Both the position numbers and the translations under genes were made by a program. Shown one piece after another: positions 5,573 through 49,668 of a DNA stretch of 64,000 nt. The notes beneath the pieces were generated by a model. The model was given only the letters and a program-made list of their open reading frames with translations. It ran no database searches and was not told where the DNA came from. Source of the DNA: Chitinophagaceae bacterium (GTDB taxonomy: Bacteria > Bacteroidota > Bacteroidia > Chitinophagales > Chitinophagaceae); NCBI GenBank assembly GCA_947446645.1, contig CANFHA010000004.1, forward strand, positions 124,001 through 188,000, in the 5' to 3' direction. Within the stretch, counting starts at the first letter, position 1, and each line of letters starts with the position of its first letter.

Positions 5573-6415
5573 CTACCACCTCTTGCCAAACTGAAACGCA
5601 ACGTAAGCATCTAAAAAGTAGGGAGTGCCTTTCCTGTTCGCCATCAGCGAAATGTCTTGCGAATAATACTCGAAGTTGAGCCCGGTCTCAGCCCCTATTA
5701 CATTTTTCCGGTTTGCTGAAAAATCAAAATGAAGAGCCGATTTTATATGGCCACCCGGTATGAATTTCATTTCGCCCAGGCCTTTGCTGAATCCTCCGCC
5801 TCCTTGTATCAGGTTCCTGTTTAGGAAAGCAGACCCGGTAGTTTCTGAATACTTGATCGCATTTCCTGCGGTTGCCGTTCCCGGGTCGGTTGCTACATTC
5901 ACATAGTACGGTTTCTCCATCCCTAGCGAAACGCCTATTACATTCAACCAATGTATAGATACCGCACCCGGATCTGGTTTGCCAGCTATCATTCGCATTG
6001 AGCCTACACCAAATTTAAGGGCATAAAAATTATTGATTTTACCGTAAATATACTTTGGGCTACCACTACCACCCGGTAAGGGCGAAGTAATTTTCTTTTC
6101 GGAATTATCTTTCTTTTCAGTGAATTCAAGCTGCATAAGTCGCACCTTGTAAAACATGTCCTTTCGTTTTCCGTCAAGAGATTTCACTTTTCCGAAATCG
6201 GTATAAGCACTCCATCCGTTCGTATTCAGGCATATCCCGAAGCTAAGTTCATTTTTGATACCTGCTGGCCCCTTGCGTACCACGGGTTGCCGTATTTGCT
6301 GCACCTTATTTTTCCTCGTAGTATCTACCGGACGGGCTGTCGTTTGCGCATATGTTTGTACTGCTGCAGTGCAGCTCGCCAACAACAATATGCTTGCTTT
6401 AAAAACCCGGTTCAT
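5573..6415 (-). CDS. Secreted, probably outer-membrane beta-barrel protein of unknown function
   Basis: The protein has 280 residues with a signal peptide (MNRVFKASILLLASCTAAVQTYAQ). A low-complexity basic linker (TTRKNKVQQIRQPVVRKG) follows, and then alternating polar/aromatic strands such as ELSFGICLNTNGWSAYTDFG, NNFYALKFGVGSM and GLNFEYYSQDISLM. It ends in the aromatic strand AYVAFQFGKRW. An aromatic last residue pair and amphipathic strands point to an outer-membrane barrel, a common uncharacterised class in Bacteroidota. It stands alone, with 120 bp to lipA and a divergent OsmC gene 97 bp away. I do not recognise a specific family. Confidence 0.65.
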   Translation of the reverse strand: MNRVFKASILLLASCTAAVQTYAQTTARPVDTTRKNKVQQIRQPVVRKGPAGIKNELSFGICLNTNGWSAYTDFGKVKSLDGKRKDMFYKVRLMQLEFTEKKDNSEKKITSPLPGGSGSPKYIYGKINNFYALKFGVGSMRMIAGKPDPGAVSIHWLNVIGVSLGMEKPYYVNVATDPGTATAGNAIKYSETTGSAFLNRNLIQGGGGFSKGLGEMKFIPGGHIKSALHFDFSANRKNVIGAETGLNFEYYSQDISLMANRKGTPYFLDAYVAFQFGKRW

Positions 6416-6512
6416 AAATTAGTTACAGCAATTTACGAATAATATTTAATATGGTCCGCAACCAATTTACGGAAGATCCATTTTCATTAGTAATTTTAAC
6501 AAAAATTCTGCC

Positions 6513-6911
6513 ATGACAGCTAAAGTAACATACATAGGAGACCTCCGTACAACAGCCACACACACACGCTCGGGGAATGCCATAGAAACCGATGCCCCGG
6601 TGGACAACCACGGCAAAGGCGACCGCTTCTCACCTACTGATCTCGTAGCTACCGCCCTGGCTTCATGTATCGTTACTACCATCGCCATCCAGGCGCCATC
6701 TATAAATATTATGGGTGCCGAATGCGAAGTGGAAAAAATAATGACATCAAATCCACGCAAAATTGGCGAAATAATTGTCACCATCAGCTTCCCCAAAAGC
6801 GGCCCTTATACTGACGAAGAAAAGACACGCCTTTACGATATCGCAGTACATTGTCCCGTGCACCAAAGCTTACATCCTGACTGCAAAAGGACGATCATAT
6901 TTAACTGGTAA
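6513..6911 (+). CDS. OsmC/Ohr family protein (peroxide reductase-like)
   Basis: The 132-residue length and layout fit OsmC-like hydroperoxide reductases. The two redox cysteines are C52 in ASCIVTT and C114 in HCPVHQSL, the pair used to reduce organic hydroperoxides with dihydrolipoamide or a similar thiol. The motif FSPTDLVATALASC is typical of the family. The neighbourhood includes lipA about 1 kb away, which supplies lipoyl groups, but no operon is formed because the genes are divergent. Short members like this form obligate homodimers. Whether it is a true Ohr or an OsmC-like thiol protein of another role cannot be settled from sequence. Confidence 0.88.
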   Translation: MTAKVTYIGDLRTTATHTRSGNAIETDAPVDNHGKGDRFSPTDLVATALASCIVTTIAIQAPSINIMGAECEVEKIMTSNPRKIGEIIVTISFPKSGPYTDEEKTRLYDIAVHCPVHQSLHPDCKRTIIFNW

Positions 6912-6955
6912 GTCGATAGAAAATAAGAGGAGGGAAAAACAGGCATACGGTGCAG

Positions 6956-9187
6956 TTAGGCATGTAGTTCTGCTTTAAGCTGATTATACTCAGCTATCAG
7001 AAACATAAGCTTGCTTACATCGTTATTTTTGCGCGTAATAAGTGCATCAAATAGGTCTTTATGCACTTCCAGGTTTCCAGCTAGCTGCTGGGCTGCTTCT
7101 TTATTAATGCCAGTAATAGCCGCACTCAGTTGCGTACTGGCATTCCTCGCCTCGCCTATCAGCTCAGCTTCAAGCAAATTATATTTTTCAGAAACGGTCT
7201 TGGTTATCGCACTTCTATCCTGGTCATACTTGCTGATCTTCGTATCTACAGCCACAGCTGCCAGTTTATACTCTTCACCCGCTTTTGCTATATAACTGCT
7301 GTGAGTTTGTTGCAGGTCAGCAAGCTTCCGGTTCACAATCGGCAGTTCTTGATTATAGTGCATGTTCGCATTGGCAACAATATTATTGTTCTCCTGCTTG
7401 TCAAGGTCATCCCGCCATGCTTTCAATAATACAGCCCTCACTTTACCTATCGCCGGCACCTTTACGAATGCCTTTTTACGATCCTTTATAGCTCCATTTT
7501 GTGAATTTACATCCAGCACATCCGCCGCCGTCACAAAGCCATGGGCATGCAGGTTACCCAACATGTTCACGTTTAAAAATCCGAATATTTTTTCGAAGTT
7601 ATCCTTGATACTATATGCAACTAATTTATCCGGATCGGTGGTCCGCCGCAAAATATCCTGGTCCCTTCTGTTGATCAAAGTTCTTTGCTCTTCCTCCAGC
7701 ACAGCCCGCATACTATGAAACTGTGTCGTAGGCGCTTCTATCAACCTTTTATAAACCTCACTCTTCTCCGCTTTCAGCTCTGCTATTTTGCTCAGTATTT
7801 CCTGCGTTGCTATTTTCCGCTCATCGCTTTCCGCTTCAAATAGCCGCTTCGCCTTTTCGTCTACAGCGTCTAGACATTTCCTGGTTTCCAGCGCAGCGCT
7901 CCTGCTATCTGCAGCCTCCTTGTCTAATATTGATTTTTGCCCAGACCGAAAATCAGAAATAATATTGTTCAGGCTCGCAGCATATACCTGCTCCCCCTTC
8001 AATACAAGGTTTATTTCACGTCCCTTCACCCTTATTTTTTCAAGCAATATATCCTTCTGCGATTGGCCAAAAATTTTTTTTATCACAGCAACGATCTCCG
8101 ACCCCATCTTTGCAGGTAGCAGATATACTGCCGGAAAGTTCACAGTAATAGTCGGTGAGAATACCAATGAGTTACTCCCGCTTGCCGCCGGTAAAAGAAT
8201 GTTCTTAGACGGTAGTTTTCTCTTTAAAAATGTAATTTCCGGTGGCGCCAGCACACGGCACCAGTCGTCGGCCGATGGTCTGGCCATGGGGTTAGTATGC
8301 CCCTCGGTAAAGCAGGCAATAAAAAGCTCCTGCACATTTGCCGGCAACAATTTAAATCGGTTATGCGGCGGCGGCACCACCTTGAAAAACTGGCGCTTGT
8401 TTCCATTCGGAAACAGCCCATTCTGAACCATCTCTGCCAGTCCGTTGCAATTGCTATAAGGCGGATTGCAACTACCCGTGAACGGATGTATACCACACAG
8501 CAAACGGTAAAAGATTACAGCCATGCTGAACCGGTCCCAGCAATCGTCAAGTGAGTCTTCAATGTTAAAATGGCTGTTATACGATTCAGGCGGCGAATAC
8601 TCCGGTGTGGCCACAGGCGCTTTAAAGATCATCTTCCTGTCACTAACCACGCCTATGCTGTCAATATCTATAATGGATATCAATCCGTTGGGCTGAATTA
8701 TAACATTCTCTGGCTTCATATCTACCAGCACATATCGCTCTGTGCTGTGCAGGTGATACATGGCCACTGCTATATTAAAGCATATCTTGCTTCTCAGCTT
8801 TATGGTATCAGGCGTATTAAAATCGAACTTAGCCCATTCATGGGGCAAATGTTTGTGGCGCGCAGGGTGACAAAGAAACTCTAGTTTCACTCCCTTGGCA
8901 TAGGGTATTATTATACCAGCAAATTTCCCATTCTCAACCACTATTTCATCAATCCATATTATAGCCTGGCTATTACCTTGCTCCGCTCTTATCGGATTGT
9001 CAATCAGGTATTCGATCTTCTGCTGTCGGTGTATATCCCTCTTCTCAGGTTTGAAGATCTTAACCACATGATTGGCATATTCAGCTGGCTTCAGTATTCT
9101 GAATAGATCACCCTCCCCTCCGCTGGCAAAGGCCACATCCTCTATAGTAACACTGATATTTTTCCGGGTCTGAATCACCTTAGACAT
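6956..9187 (-). CDS. TerY-P-type protein kinase with C-terminal coiled-coil / HhH-like region
   Basis: Residues about 15-300 form a eukaryotic-like kinase. The glycine-rich loop is GGEG (23-26) and the ATP lysine K43 lies in VVKIFKP. The catalytic loop is VDMKPEN, with D156, K158 and N161, and lacks the usual HR before D. The metal-binding motif is DID (174-176) in place of DFG. A region of long charged helices with coiled-coil character follows. It is interrupted around residues 540-600 by a helix-hairpin-helix-like stretch (MLGNLHAHGFVTAADVLD...VPAIGKVRAVLLKAW), a feature linked to TerY-P kinases. Only 19 bp separate it from the PP2C gene upstream, and the vWA gene precedes that: the kinase/phosphatase/TerY set. 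Substrates are unknown. Confidence 0.85.
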   Translation of the reverse strand: MSKVIQTRKNISVTIEDVAFASGGEGDLFRILKPAEYANHVVKIFKPEKRDIHRQQKIEYLIDNPIRAEQGNSQAIIWIDEIVVENGKFAGIIIPYAKGVKLEFLCHPARHKHLPHEWAKFDFNTPDTIKLRSKICFNIAVAMYHLHSTERYVLVDMKPENVIIQPNGLISIIDIDSIGVVSDRKMIFKAPVATPEYSPPESYNSHFNIEDSLDDCWDRFSMAVIFYRLLCGIHPFTGSCNPPYSNCNGLAEMVQNGLFPNGNKRQFFKVVPPPHNRFKLLPANVQELFIACFTEGHTNPMARPSADDWCRVLAPPEITFLKRKLPSKNILLPAASGSNSLVFSPTITVNFPAVYLLPAKMGSEIVAVIKKIFGQSQKDILLEKIRVKGREINLVLKGEQVYAASLNNIISDFRSGQKSILDKEAADSRSAALETRKCLDAVDEKAKRLFEAESDERKIATQEILSKIAELKAEKSEVYKRLIEAPTTQFHSMRAVLEEEQRTLINRRDQDILRRTTDPDKLVAYSIKDNFEKIFGFLNVNMLGNLHAHGFVTAADVLDVNSQNGAIKDRKKAFVKVPAIGKVRAVLLKAWRDDLDKQENNNIVANANMHYNQELPIVNRKLADLQQTHSSYIAKAGEEYKLAAVAVDTKISKYDQDRSAITKTVSEKYNLLEAELIGEARNASTQLSAAITGINKEAAQQLAGNLEVHKDLFDALITRKNNDVSKLMFLIAEYNQLKAELHA

Positions 9188-46873: not shown

Positions 46874-47038
46874 CGTGAAATAGTTGATCTACGAATATAG
46901 ATAGGATTTTAGCACATAGGCGAACTAACTGACGGCTCGTTAACTTATCATATTTGAAATATATCTAAACGCTACTCTTTTTTGAAAGTTGTTATGTTCA
47001 ACTGTAGTGAAAACAATCAATACTAGTATTAGAATAAC

Positions 47039-47752
47039 CTAAAAATTGACTAAATGATCGGGCCTTTTCTTGCAATTATGGTCATTAAGTGTTCTGAATA
47101 TAGAGTCCGCAAGTCTTGTTCCAGTTGACACTAATTTCGAAAGTACTCTCAATTGCTCTTTGCAAGCAATATCAGAAGTCGGATGTGGATAATTTATACT
47201 GTGGTCAATTTCCCCCCAAATTTCTTCAAATAAAGTTCTAACTTGTATTTCGCAACAAACAGGATTGGGATTTGTATTATTCGGTTTTACTAAATAATGA
47301 ACACTCGTATAAAATGTTTCCCTAACTTCATTTTCAATTTCCAATCTGTCATACATGATTTTAGATTCTGGATCCCAAGTGAATGCCTTCGGTGGTTCGA
47401 CAAATTTCCAATCTCCTTCACCGATATACTTCATAATCTGTTCGTGAATCGAAGGGAATTGGTCTTGATATAGATGTAAAACTCTAAAACCGATTAAATC
47501 CGTAATTTCAGTGCAAAGATTTTCCTTGGTTACGGTCTTACCCTGTTTAAATTTCCGTTCAATTTTATCTTTTAAATGATTTGGGTCTTTAATCCTTGTT
47601 TTTACAGAATGAATTACAGGCAACGGTTTAGCATTTAAAACAGGGTGTCTTAAGAAAAATGTTTCAACGGATGCTTGAAACTGTTGAAACCGATGTTGGT
47701 TCTCGCTATAGTAGGCCACAACAGAGTCTATATGATCGTTTAACTCACTCAT
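47039..47752 (-). CDS. RelA/SpoT synthetase-domain protein (small alarmone synthetase-like)
   Basis: The 237-residue protein consists of one RelA/SpoT nucleotidyltransferase domain. Motifs seen: VKTRIKDPNHLKDKI (R53, K55), TDLIGFRVL (D85, R90), the guanine-stacking Y148 with S150 and H152 (FYTSVHYLV), and EIQVRTLFEEIWGEIDH (E168, R172, W179). These fit an active (p)ppGpp-type pyrophosphokinase; there is no hydrolase or regulatory domain. Its start overlaps the ParA stop by four bases (ATGA). It could act as an alarmone synthetase, a toxic synthetase, or a tRNA-modifying relative. The gene is AT-rich against its surroundings. Confidence 0.85.
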   Translation of the reverse strand: MSELNDHIDSVVAYYSENQHRFQQFQASVETFFLRHPVLNAKPLPVIHSVKTRIKDPNHLKDKIERKFKQGKTVTKENLCTEITDLIGFRVLHLYQDQFPSIHEQIMKYIGEGDWKFVEPPKAFTWDPESKIMYDRLEIENEVRETFYTSVHYLVKPNNTNPNPVCCEIQVRTLFEEIWGEIDHSINYPHPTSDIACKEQLRVLSKLVSTGTRLADSIFRTLNDHNCKKRPDHLVNF

Positions 47753-48879
47753 AGGGAATTAATTCTTGTTAACAAATCTCTTGTAAATATTATGTACTTT
47801 TCTTTAATCTCTCTTAGCCTACCATTGTTACCTCTATTGTATTCAAACCCATTCTGATTTAACAATGCAAAATATTGTGGATTTGTTCTTTCTAGAGCAG
47901 CATACACTTCTGGCACTTTCCACATTGGACATTTTAAAGCCTGTGCCATAGCGGGAAACGTATTGTGAGAGTGGATAATTGAATCCCCTCCAACCGGCTT
48001 GTCAATTATTTCAGGAGGGACTCTAGTTCGATTACTTTCCTTAATAAATTGCATAATAATTTCAGGAATACGGCTTACGTACTGATAATGAGCTTGTGCT
48101 AAATTATATTCGTTAAAAGGCTCATTATCCCTTGTATACTTTTTAGCATTATAAATCGTATATCCTAGAAATTGAACAAAATGCAATGGAAACTTCGCTC
48201 TCTTTTCTTCAGAAATCAATGAATAAATTGAAATAAATTCTCGTTGCCACACTTGCAATGCACTTCCGATATTTCTAATTCCATATAAACTAAACATATC
48301 TGGCTGAGCAGGTATGAAAAAGCCATCAACTGTCGACATAATCACCTTATTTAGTATACCCAAACTAGGAGAGGTGTCGATTAAAACATATTCATAACTA
48401 TTAGTTTCTGCATACTGCAGGCATATATTTCGAATATTTGTTACGGTTCTAATCGCTAAGTTATCACCTTGATAGACCCCACTCCACCTTTCTGCAATTT
48501 TATTTTCATATTTATGCAATGAAAGTCTACCTGGTAAGAGGTCTATATTATTCCCAATAGAAAAGGGCGGTGGTAAGTTTGCTGGTTCACTTATCCCATC
48601 TTCTGTAGGTTTAAGGATGAAATGAATGCTTCTTGGTGAGTTAATAATATCAGGATTTTTGGAAAAGGCTCTCTCATAGTCATCAATGTAGCTATCTTCT
48701 TCCTCCCAGATTTGATGCAGTCTCTCTTCCATCATTGCACATATGGTTAAATTGCACTGAGGGTCTAAGTCAACCATCAGAACCTTATGTCCGAGTTCCG
48801 CTAGCGTATTTCCTAGATGATAGGTTAAAGTTGATTTACCAACTCCGCCTTTATTATTGAATACTGAAATTATTTTCAT
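47749..48879 (-). CDS. ParA-type (MinD/Soj) ATPase with C-terminal extension
   Basis: The 376-residue protein has the deviant Walker A KGGVGKST (K10 and K15), VDLDPQCN (D37, D39) and LIDTSPSLG as Walker B-type motif. A PAQPDMFSLYGI segment completes the ParA fold. Plain ParA is about 260 residues; here an extra region of roughly 100 residues (about 250-376) carries no motif I recognise. No parB or centromere-like repeat is near. It is followed with a four-base overlap by the RelA/SpoT gene and has a 9+9-base inverted repeat just upstream. It probably senses, localises or controls the synthetase; this is inference. Confidence 0.85.
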   Translation of the reverse strand: MKIISVFNNKGGVGKSTLTYHLGNTLAELGHKVLMVDLDPQCNLTICAMMEERLHQIWEEEDSYIDDYERAFSKNPDIINSPRSIHFILKPTEDGISEPANLPPPFSIGNNIDLLPGRLSLHKYENKIAERWSGVYQGDNLAIRTVTNIRNICLQYAETNSYEYVLIDTSPSLGILNKVIMSTVDGFFIPAQPDMFSLYGIRNIGSALQVWQREFISIYSLISEEKRAKFPLHFVQFLGYTIYNAKKYTRDNEPFNEYNLAQAHYQYVSRIPEIIMQFIKESNRTRVPPEIIDKPVGGDSIIHSHNTFPAMAQALKCPMWKVPEVYAALERTNPQYFALLNQNGFEYNRGNNGRLREIKEKYIIFTRDLLTRINSL

Positions 48880-48905
48880 TAGTTTATTTTTTCACGTTAT
48901 AGATG

Positions 48906-48926
48906 TTTAATTTTATTAAAATTAAA
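48906..48926 (-). promoter_or_regulatory. Inverted repeat, candidate operator of the ParA/RelA-SpoT operon
   Basis: TTTAATTTT (48906-48914) and AAAATTAAA (48918-48926) are perfect inverted arms around ATT. The site ends 27 bases upstream of the ParA ATG, where an autorepressor would bind. AT-rich background can create such symmetry by chance. Confidence 0.4.
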
Positions 48927-49354
48927 ATTAATATGTATTATTTATATTAGGATGCCGAGTGAAACAAAATCGCTGGTACAAACATACACAATAGAAAGTT
49001 ATAATTCAACACAACCAAACTAACACATTGCTTTTAGATACTGTACAAAGACAACTGAGACCTTGCGGATCGTATAAAGGCAGAGAAAAATGATATGTTA
49101 CATTGAAGTCGTCCGTCACATCCAATAAATCCCCAAAAACATAAGTTCCTAAACCCACGTTAAAACCTACAACATATCCACAAAGCTTTGCCGAAACAGT
49201 GATGTGCATTTACCTTTGTACCGCAGAAGCTACCTATCAACAATAGTAAACCCGATATGAGAATCATCCTCACTTATTTTGAAAATAATTCATTTACCAC
49301 TAAGCATCCCGGCAAACATTCTCGACGATTTCGACGAATTATTTTTTCAAAAAA

Positions 49355-49412
49355 TGCACACATGCGCAAAAACCAGTAACCAAATCATTGATTTTCAATC
49401 AAAATGTGTGCA
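49355..49412. repeat. Dispersed element copy B with 9-bp inverted arms
   Basis: TGCACACAT (49355-49363) and ATGTGTGCA (49404-49412) are perfect inverted arms about 40 bases apart. The right part (49373-49412) matches 29840-29880. AATTATTTTTTTATT follows on the plus strand, so the whole could work as a terminator-like structure. Confidence 0.65.
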
Positions 49413-49534
49413 ATTATTTTTTTATTGCAGGTTGTCCAATTTTCCACGGCAATAAACGCGACTACCGGTTTCCGCAACCGGAAACCAACCGGAAAAAACC
49501 GGAAAAGCAAACCTAGTAACGCTATCATTATCAT

Positions 49535-49550
49535 CCCGATAGCTATCGGG
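49535..49550. repeat. Perfect 16-bp palindrome CCCGATAGCTATCGGG
   Basis: The palindrome has no mismatch. Its inner half (GATAGCTATCGG) recurs at about 54017-54028. I associate this word with highly repeated palindromes in Bacteroidota genomes. Confidence 0.7.
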
Positions 49551-49628
49551 AGCGCCCAAAAACCAATTTCCACCGCCACCGGAAAACTACAACTACAACC
49601 ACAACTAAATACCCAAACACACCACCCT

Positions 49629-49668
49629 CACGACTTATGACTTACGACTTATGACTTACGACTCATAA
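49629..49668. repeat. Iterated GACTTATGACTTACG word
   Basis: Four GACTTA(T/C) words occur in tandem, covering the last codons (MSRKS and stop) of the hypothetical gene at 49649-50218 and the bases after it. Confidence 0.6.

Follow-up and report, generated by a model that had tools for sequence, protein, structure and literature searches.

A ParA-type ATPase coupled to a stand-alone RelA/SpoT synthetase, a probable mobile immune module of bacteria

The 64,000-nucleotide stretch of a Chitinophagaceae genome analyzed here (hereinafter the window) contains two adjacent genes for proteins of well known families in an unfamiliar combination, which raises the question of whether they form a functional unit and what such a unit might do. 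The first gene (47749..48879, minus strand) encodes a ParA/MinD-type ATPase of 376 aa with a deviant Walker A motif, recognized from the open reading frame, Pfam, a PDB profile search and a structural model, and is the proposed sensor or regulator. The second gene (47039..47752, minus strand) encodes a stand-alone RelA/SpoT synthetase domain of 237 aa, recognized from the open reading frame, Pfam, an alignment and a model, and is the proposed effector. In the list of open reading frames of the window, the two genes share four bases, ATGA, the same stop/start overlap that was described in the initial annotation, where the pair was put forward as a candidate undescribed stress or defence module.

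The pair is located within an AT-rich insert (46874..49648, 35% GC, with approximate edges) that was delineated by the positions of the flanking genes in relatives and by composition. The initial annotation had this DNA as richer in AT than its flanks, and the numbers agree: the pair has a GC content of 35.2%, whereas that of the window without the insert is 45.8%, all 576 segments of equal length taken from this remainder are higher in GC than the pair, and GC3 is 0.29-0.30 in the genes of the pair compared to 0.49-0.65 in six other genes. The insert is flanked by a GNAT gene and a gene for a 189-aa protein, which are 2.8 kb apart here and at most about 65 bp apart in 19 of the 21 informative same-genus genomes, that is, those other genomes among the 35 of the genus (own genome included) in which the flanking GNAT gene is strongly matched, for part of which the sequences themselves were examined. 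In the remaining two genomes (G008 and G029), the flanking genes are on different contigs. The distance of 2.8 kb compared to about 65 bp in the relatives indicates that the module is an insert, and the composition indicates that it is foreign. Besides the pair, no open reading frame of at least 80 aa lies wholly within the insert, so there is no parB gene in it, as previously noted; a single ParB_N match is present in the genome, on another contig. Two RelA_SpoT genes are present in the genome, one of which encodes a long RSH protein and the other the synthetase of the window. No long terminal repeat was seen at the insert. A 14-base tandem duplicate (49627-49654) is present at the end of the gene for the 189-aa protein, at the edge of the insert.

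An inverted repeat had also been reported 5' of the ParA start. The repeat exists (48906..48931, with arms 48906-48915/48917-48926 and also 48907-48915/48923-48931), and the weight that might be attached to it does not stand: the arms contain no bases other than A and T, 2.5% of 2,000 simulated sequences include a perfect 9+9 repeat whose spacer does not exceed 7 bases, and six relatives have no 9+9 repeat within the 120 bp that precede ParA. For these reasons, the repeat is disregarded here and its interpretation as an operator is rejected.

The link between the two genes was assessed from both sides. A search of 84,980 species genomes with an alignment of the synthetase only produced 176 confirmed relatives, the best 80 of which were taken. 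A ParA-family match is located upstream on the same strand in 78 of the 79 evaluable loci among these best 80, and within 200 bp of the synthetase in 77 of them; the remaining locus, L086, has no DNA upstream and is not evaluable. Four loci (L030, L041, L064 and L091) start inside ParA at a contig edge, ParA is divergent in four others (L062, L065, L079 and L092), the two genes of Xanthomonas hortorum (L092, 6942-7922) are separated by a transposase-like gene, and in L101 ParA is reduced to its end next to an intact synthetase frame. The only evaluable locus without a ParA match, L050, encodes a synthetase fused to a methyltransferase domain (6310-7734) that is related to the clade of the pair. 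With the start codons chosen by a script, the intergenic gap is between -14 and +17 bp in 65 of the 71 loci with two full open reading frames, and 16 of the 71 share the -4 overlap of the window. Among the 76 intact synthetases, no two are 95% identical. In the Caballeronia ParA region L003:6800-7977, no single open frame spans the first codons and the Walker A motif, so this copy may be broken or misread.

For the reverse search, viral contigs were queried with an alignment of the window, prophage and SIR2-linked ParA proteins (see below), which matched where a scan of these contigs with the window ParA alone gave no match; of 221 confirmed relatives, the best 80 were taken. ParA proteins scoring at least 338 bits were classified as RelA type and those scoring at least 220 bits as SIR2 type, with the cut read off the score table. 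A synthetase match is located downstream in all 20 RelA-type loci with downstream DNA (17 clusters at 95%), including L122, where the synthetase frame is only 84 aa; three further loci of this type stop at a contig edge. Furthermore, protein distances of ParA and the synthetase correlate across 71 loci (r = 0.56, above 999 of 999 permutations), and the correlation rises to 0.73 without the four rows with a divergent ParA. Thus, the two genes are rarely apart and are transmitted as one unit. The initial annotation had left room for chance neighbours, found apart as often as together; nothing beyond the first locus speaks for that explanation, the counts from both sides, the correlated distances and the Escherichia coli carriers described below speak against it, and we reject it as having a vanishingly small probability.

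The hosts of the pair span ten phyla, namely Bacteroidota, Bacillota, Pseudomonadota, Campylobacterota, Acidobacteriota, Elusimicrobiota, Myxococcota, Thermodesulfobacteriota, Poribacteria and Methanobacteriota, the latter represented by two archaeal loci; because many of these hosts are metagenome-assembled genomes, single host assignments may be wrong. Among close relatives, the distribution is sparse. No synthetase match was detected in the other 34 genomes of the genus, and among 60 related genomes (own included), a close match is found in the own genome only; two others contain weaker synthetase matches, with no ParA match within the short loci around them. The module also occurs in prophages and on a plasmid record. 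The DNA of the pair from Edwardsiella matches 7 of 5,426 complete E. coli genomes, and in all seven the pair and the P2 portal gene are covered by one 2.8-kb match at 99.8-100% identity, so these copies represent one event, the cargo of one prophage. The RefSeq names of the E. coli proteins are family names only.

The first protein of the pair is a ParA-type ATPase, as initially annotated (Pfam AAA_31/CbiA, E 1.2e-31). Its Walker A motif, KGGVGK, is intact and is invariant in 45 of 45 aligned rows, including four SIR2-linked ones, with little or no variation at other positions of the core in these rows. With 376 aa compared to 255-276 aa in Soj-type PDB chains, the protein has about 100 additional residues, again as had been stated. 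In the profile of this ParA family, 346 of 363 positions are covered by the match to 3pg5 (E 3.9e-69), which is followed by Soj/ParA, and the structural model (mean pLDDT 93.2) has 3pg5/DIP2308 as its best Foldseek match.

The synthetase is not the only partner of this ATPase family. In plasmid-collection records of Salmonella, Burkholderia, Photobacterium and Neorhizobium, ParA is followed by an overlapping SIR2 gene, and a SIR2 gene is located downstream in all 22 SIR2-type loci of viral contigs with downstream DNA (19 clusters at 95%), three further loci being cut by a contig edge. The three SIR2 proteins examined match Pfam SIR2_2, and two SIR2 partners match ThsA in PADLOC (1.2e-21 and 1.2e-19). 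In the ParA tree, the SIR2-linked proteins form one clade (100/100), and the RelA/SpoT label requires two changes that are forced by the starred branches; the two groups with this label are the main clade and the group of L062, L065, L079 and L092, so the synthetase was joined to two ParA lineages. Neither a synthetase nor a SIR2 gene is found beside ParA in 32 of the 80 viral-contig loci, all of which score below 200 bits; ten of these (178-199 bits), together with L017 and L018, make up a third ParA group. In three viral contigs (L130, L178 and L182), a gene that on visual inspection resembles a DNA adenine methylase gene adjoins ParA on the opposite strand. In L127 (8001-11293), the gene of a more distant ParA family member overlaps one for a 771-aa protein with a PglZ match just below the Pfam cut-off, which is a possible further partner.

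The interval between gpA and gpQ of P2-like prophages is described as an anti-phage hotspot in the accessible text of PMC9122126. In two inspected E. coli carriers, the prophages of which are P2-like, replication endonuclease and DinI-like genes are found on one side of the pair and the portal gene on the other. Among viral loci, the pair is located between gpA and portal matches in only 6 of 20 (L108, L112, L113, L114, L120 and L121), and the same holds for the genome locus L056, which L112 and L113 seem to duplicate; the pair adjoins the portal gene in L066 and L106. The SIR2 form occupies the gpA-portal interval in 5 of 22 loci (L140, L141, L149, L164 and L180), four of which are distinct, L140 and L141 being near-copies. 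This placement is shared by some relatives but not by the window copy. The latter has a small insert to itself, flanked by two ordinary chromosomal genes and outside any defence island, and this isolation of the window copy, like the low share of viral loci in the interval, counts against a defence function.

The wider neighbourhoods were scanned in 47 of the 71 full pair loci, those with at least 3.5 kb on each side, taking up to three open reading frames per side (110-1,200 aa, called by a script, 275 in total). At 1e-8, PADLOC matches comprised 151 and 99 families in the two halves of this set (families, not proteins), and the matches listed include pAgo, GajB, LmuB, a type I specificity subunit, RTasHel (DRT), KwaA, KwaB, PtuA, ZorD1 and PDC candidates. 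A control of 131 open reading frames from arbitrary places in 20 carrier genomes, a smaller set than the neighbours, matched 31 families; those listed are mostly generic (mad ATPase-like, RtcR, MotB-like and helicases), along with AriA and PDC-S09, and mad3 appears in both sets. In Pfam, the neighbours include phage and transposition genes, but also many ordinary metabolic genes.

The prophage locations and the ParA fold could also be explained if the ATPase were a true partition protein that maintains the prophage or plasmid, with the synthetase tuning host growth for replication or lysogeny. A putative plasmid partition system is indeed reported at the same P2 locus in about one quarter of P2-like phages, according to the accessible text of PMC9122126. 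However, the insert lacks parB, the only ParB_N gene of the genome being elsewhere, the window copy is embedded among ordinary chromosomal genes, 3pg5 is a closer relative than Soj/ParA among the solved structures, and SIR2 can replace the partner. The partition system as such is rejected because there is no ParB nearby, and we consider a partition or maintenance role of ParA improbable.

The second protein is a member of the RelA_SpoT family (E 5.6e-16), and, as initially annotated, a stand-alone domain with the main synthetase motifs. Eight residues, R53, K55, D85, Y148, H152, E168, Q170 and R172, to which we assign catalytic roles by presumed analogy with the RelA and small alarmone synthetase (SAS) enzymes, are invariant in all 68 aligned rows (the window and 67 of 93 extracted frames), as are W126 and D127 between the two halves of the domain; the corresponding stretches of CapRel can be aligned. 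The model (mean pLDDT 93.9) has Staphylococcus aureus RelP/SAS2 as its best PDB match in Foldseek, followed by RelQ enzymes, with CapRel at rank 37, and in the PDB profile search RelP and RelQ score 41-47 bits compared to 13 bits (E 0.46) for CapRel. By profile and predicted fold, the synthetase is nearer to the housekeeping RelP/RelQ enzymes than to CapRel. In a tree of 92 rows, one side of a branch (88/93) holds all 78 rows of the pair, which stem from 76 of the 80 loci, from the window and from L003, apart from the RelQ-like and long RSH references. A placement with such housekeeping enzymes, which the initial annotation had named as refuting, is thus not seen with the references of this tree, among which there is one RelQ-like enzyme and no RelP. 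The references, one RelQ-like enzyme on a long branch, long RSH and CapRel on a very long branch, make the deep placement unsure. Six enzymes, from four plasmid records, a Vibrio phage and a viral contig, are the nearest outsiders to the pair clade, and none of their loci contains a ParA match. Two of the sister-group plasmid synthetases (L004:5818-6849 and L006:1712-2881) extend 136 and 181 residues beyond the Pfam domain, compared to 47 in the window synthetase, and by analogy to CapRel might be self-controlled fusions. A RelA/SpoT-type synthetase is also encoded in a small Vibrio phage of the Vinavirales (L023:5001-5465), where the record annotates only a short hypothetical gene.

The similarity of folds and profiles to RelP and RelQ, along with the intact catalytic residues, would fit an ordinary small alarmone synthetase with a general stress function unrelated to phages, the activity or cell location of which is set by ParA. 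The patchy, mobile distribution of the pair, with a close match in only one of 60 related genomes and, at the sensitivity of the search, in 7 of 5,426 E. coli, speaks against this explanation, as do the prophage hotspot and the swapped effector, and it appears very improbable. The SIR2 swap and the P2 hotspot favour defence over general stress, and the initial proposal of an undescribed stress or defence module is supported, given that the two outcomes named as refuting it were looked for and did not refute it.

We therefore consider the pair to be probably a bacterial immune module, given that its genes travel together between distant microbes and are found at prophage sites where anti-virus genes are kept. 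More specifically, judging by the sequences, it is fairly likely to act against phages through an effector that stops growth and is held or triggered by the ParA-like ATPase. The linkage of the genes, the intact active-site residues, the exchange of effectors and the prophage hotspot on which this proposal is based are directly seen. In the mechanism that we infer, from ParA as the sensor through the direction of control and nucleotide-dependent switching to the product and the abortive outcome, the ATPase would use its nucleotide switch and extended C-terminal region to keep the co-made synthetase inactive or to recognize an infection cue, for which replicating phage DNA or a phage protein are candidates. 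The activated synthetase would transfer pyrophosphate from ATP either to a nucleotide, producing (p)ppGpp or (p)ppApp, or to tRNA, growth would stop and the infection would be aborted; the SIR2 form might attain the same end via NAD+ consumption.

The ParA-like protein could instead merely neutralize a toxic synthetase, so that the pair would be an addiction module of the toxin-antitoxin type that stabilizes a mobile element without responding to phages. The overlap of the genes, their occurrence in prophages and on a plasmid record, and the absence of an upstream ParA-family match in only 1 of 79 evaluable loci (L050) are all compatible with this possibility. Conversely, the intact synthetase frame next to a ParA remnant in L101 implies that cells can sometimes survive without ParA, an ATPase of this size would be unusual as an antitoxin, and the hotspot and the effector swap point to defence, though the two functions overlap. 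We regard the toxin-antitoxin explanation as rather unlikely; it differs from the immune module mainly in the role of ParA, and sequence cannot separate the two.

In a broader proposal, for which we consider the chances about even, the ParA/MinD-type family represented by 3pg5 would be an unrecognized, modular class of phage sensors that prophages and small islands have carried across bacteria and archaea. Its nucleotide-attacking effectors would be interchangeable, being either a SIR2 NADase or a RelA/SpoT synthetase. To our knowledge, this would be the first case of a ParA nucleotide switch used as an immune trigger. The new kind of partner would thereby link the alarmone enzyme superfamily to immunity, and a role in immunity would become possible for a cytoskeletal-type ATPase. 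Since two unrelated effectors are coupled to a single ParA family, ParA lends itself to study as a general sensor. With a copy available from an E. coli prophage, at a known hotspot, laboratory strains offer a direct test of the proposal.

As in the initial annotation, which knew of no named system with this pair, neither protein matched a defence model over its length in PADLOC-DB 2.0.0: the window synthetase gives a 12-bit PtuB match and that of L027 none, and ParA matches mainly a Walker A stretch of PDC-M28B. Among the matches listed in a search of full-text literature, with bioRxiv, most subscription papers and supplements outside its scope, no recognized ParA-RelA/SpoT or ParA-SIR2 defence system was found, and as far as searched the pair has not been named; because supplements such as Table S5 of PMC9122126 fall outside that scope, an earlier listing of the pair is possible.

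Among known systems, the pair shares with the ParA/Soj partition ATPases the deviant Walker A motif and the core fold, but its ParA has about 100 extra residues and an effector gene in place of the adjacent ParB of ParABS systems, which is absent. The near-full-length homologue 3pg5 (DIP2308 of Corynebacterium diphtheriae, structural genomics, 2010) is listed merely as an uncharacterized protein. RelP (SAS2) and RelQ (SAS1), the best PDB matches of the synthetase, have the SYNTH fold and the catalytic residues in common with it, whereas the pair synthetase is only 15-22% identical to them in the Foldseek rows, is mobile and is almost always adjacent to a ParA gene; the sole RelQ-like reference in the tree is outside the pair clade. 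CapRel and the toxSAS enzymes FaRel2, PhRel and FaRel use the same RelA/SpoT-type catalytic domain as a growth-stopping enzyme, and a SYNTH domain with intact active-site residues is present in the pair. The antitoxin types of toxSAS are a zinc-finger-like domain, ATfaRel2, Panacea and Tis1, according to the accessible text of PMC11782079, and no known type is found beside or within the synthetase; in contrast to the fused zinc-finger-like, Panacea or Tis1-type antitoxins, the partner here is a separate ParA-type ATPase, and the pair synthetase does not group with CapRel, a very long branch, in the tree. The ParA-SIR2 pairs have the same arrangement as the ParA-synthetase pair, a homologous ParA immediately followed by a toxic-type effector, but the effector is a ThsA-like SIR2 protein and the ParA proteins are only 28-29% identical.
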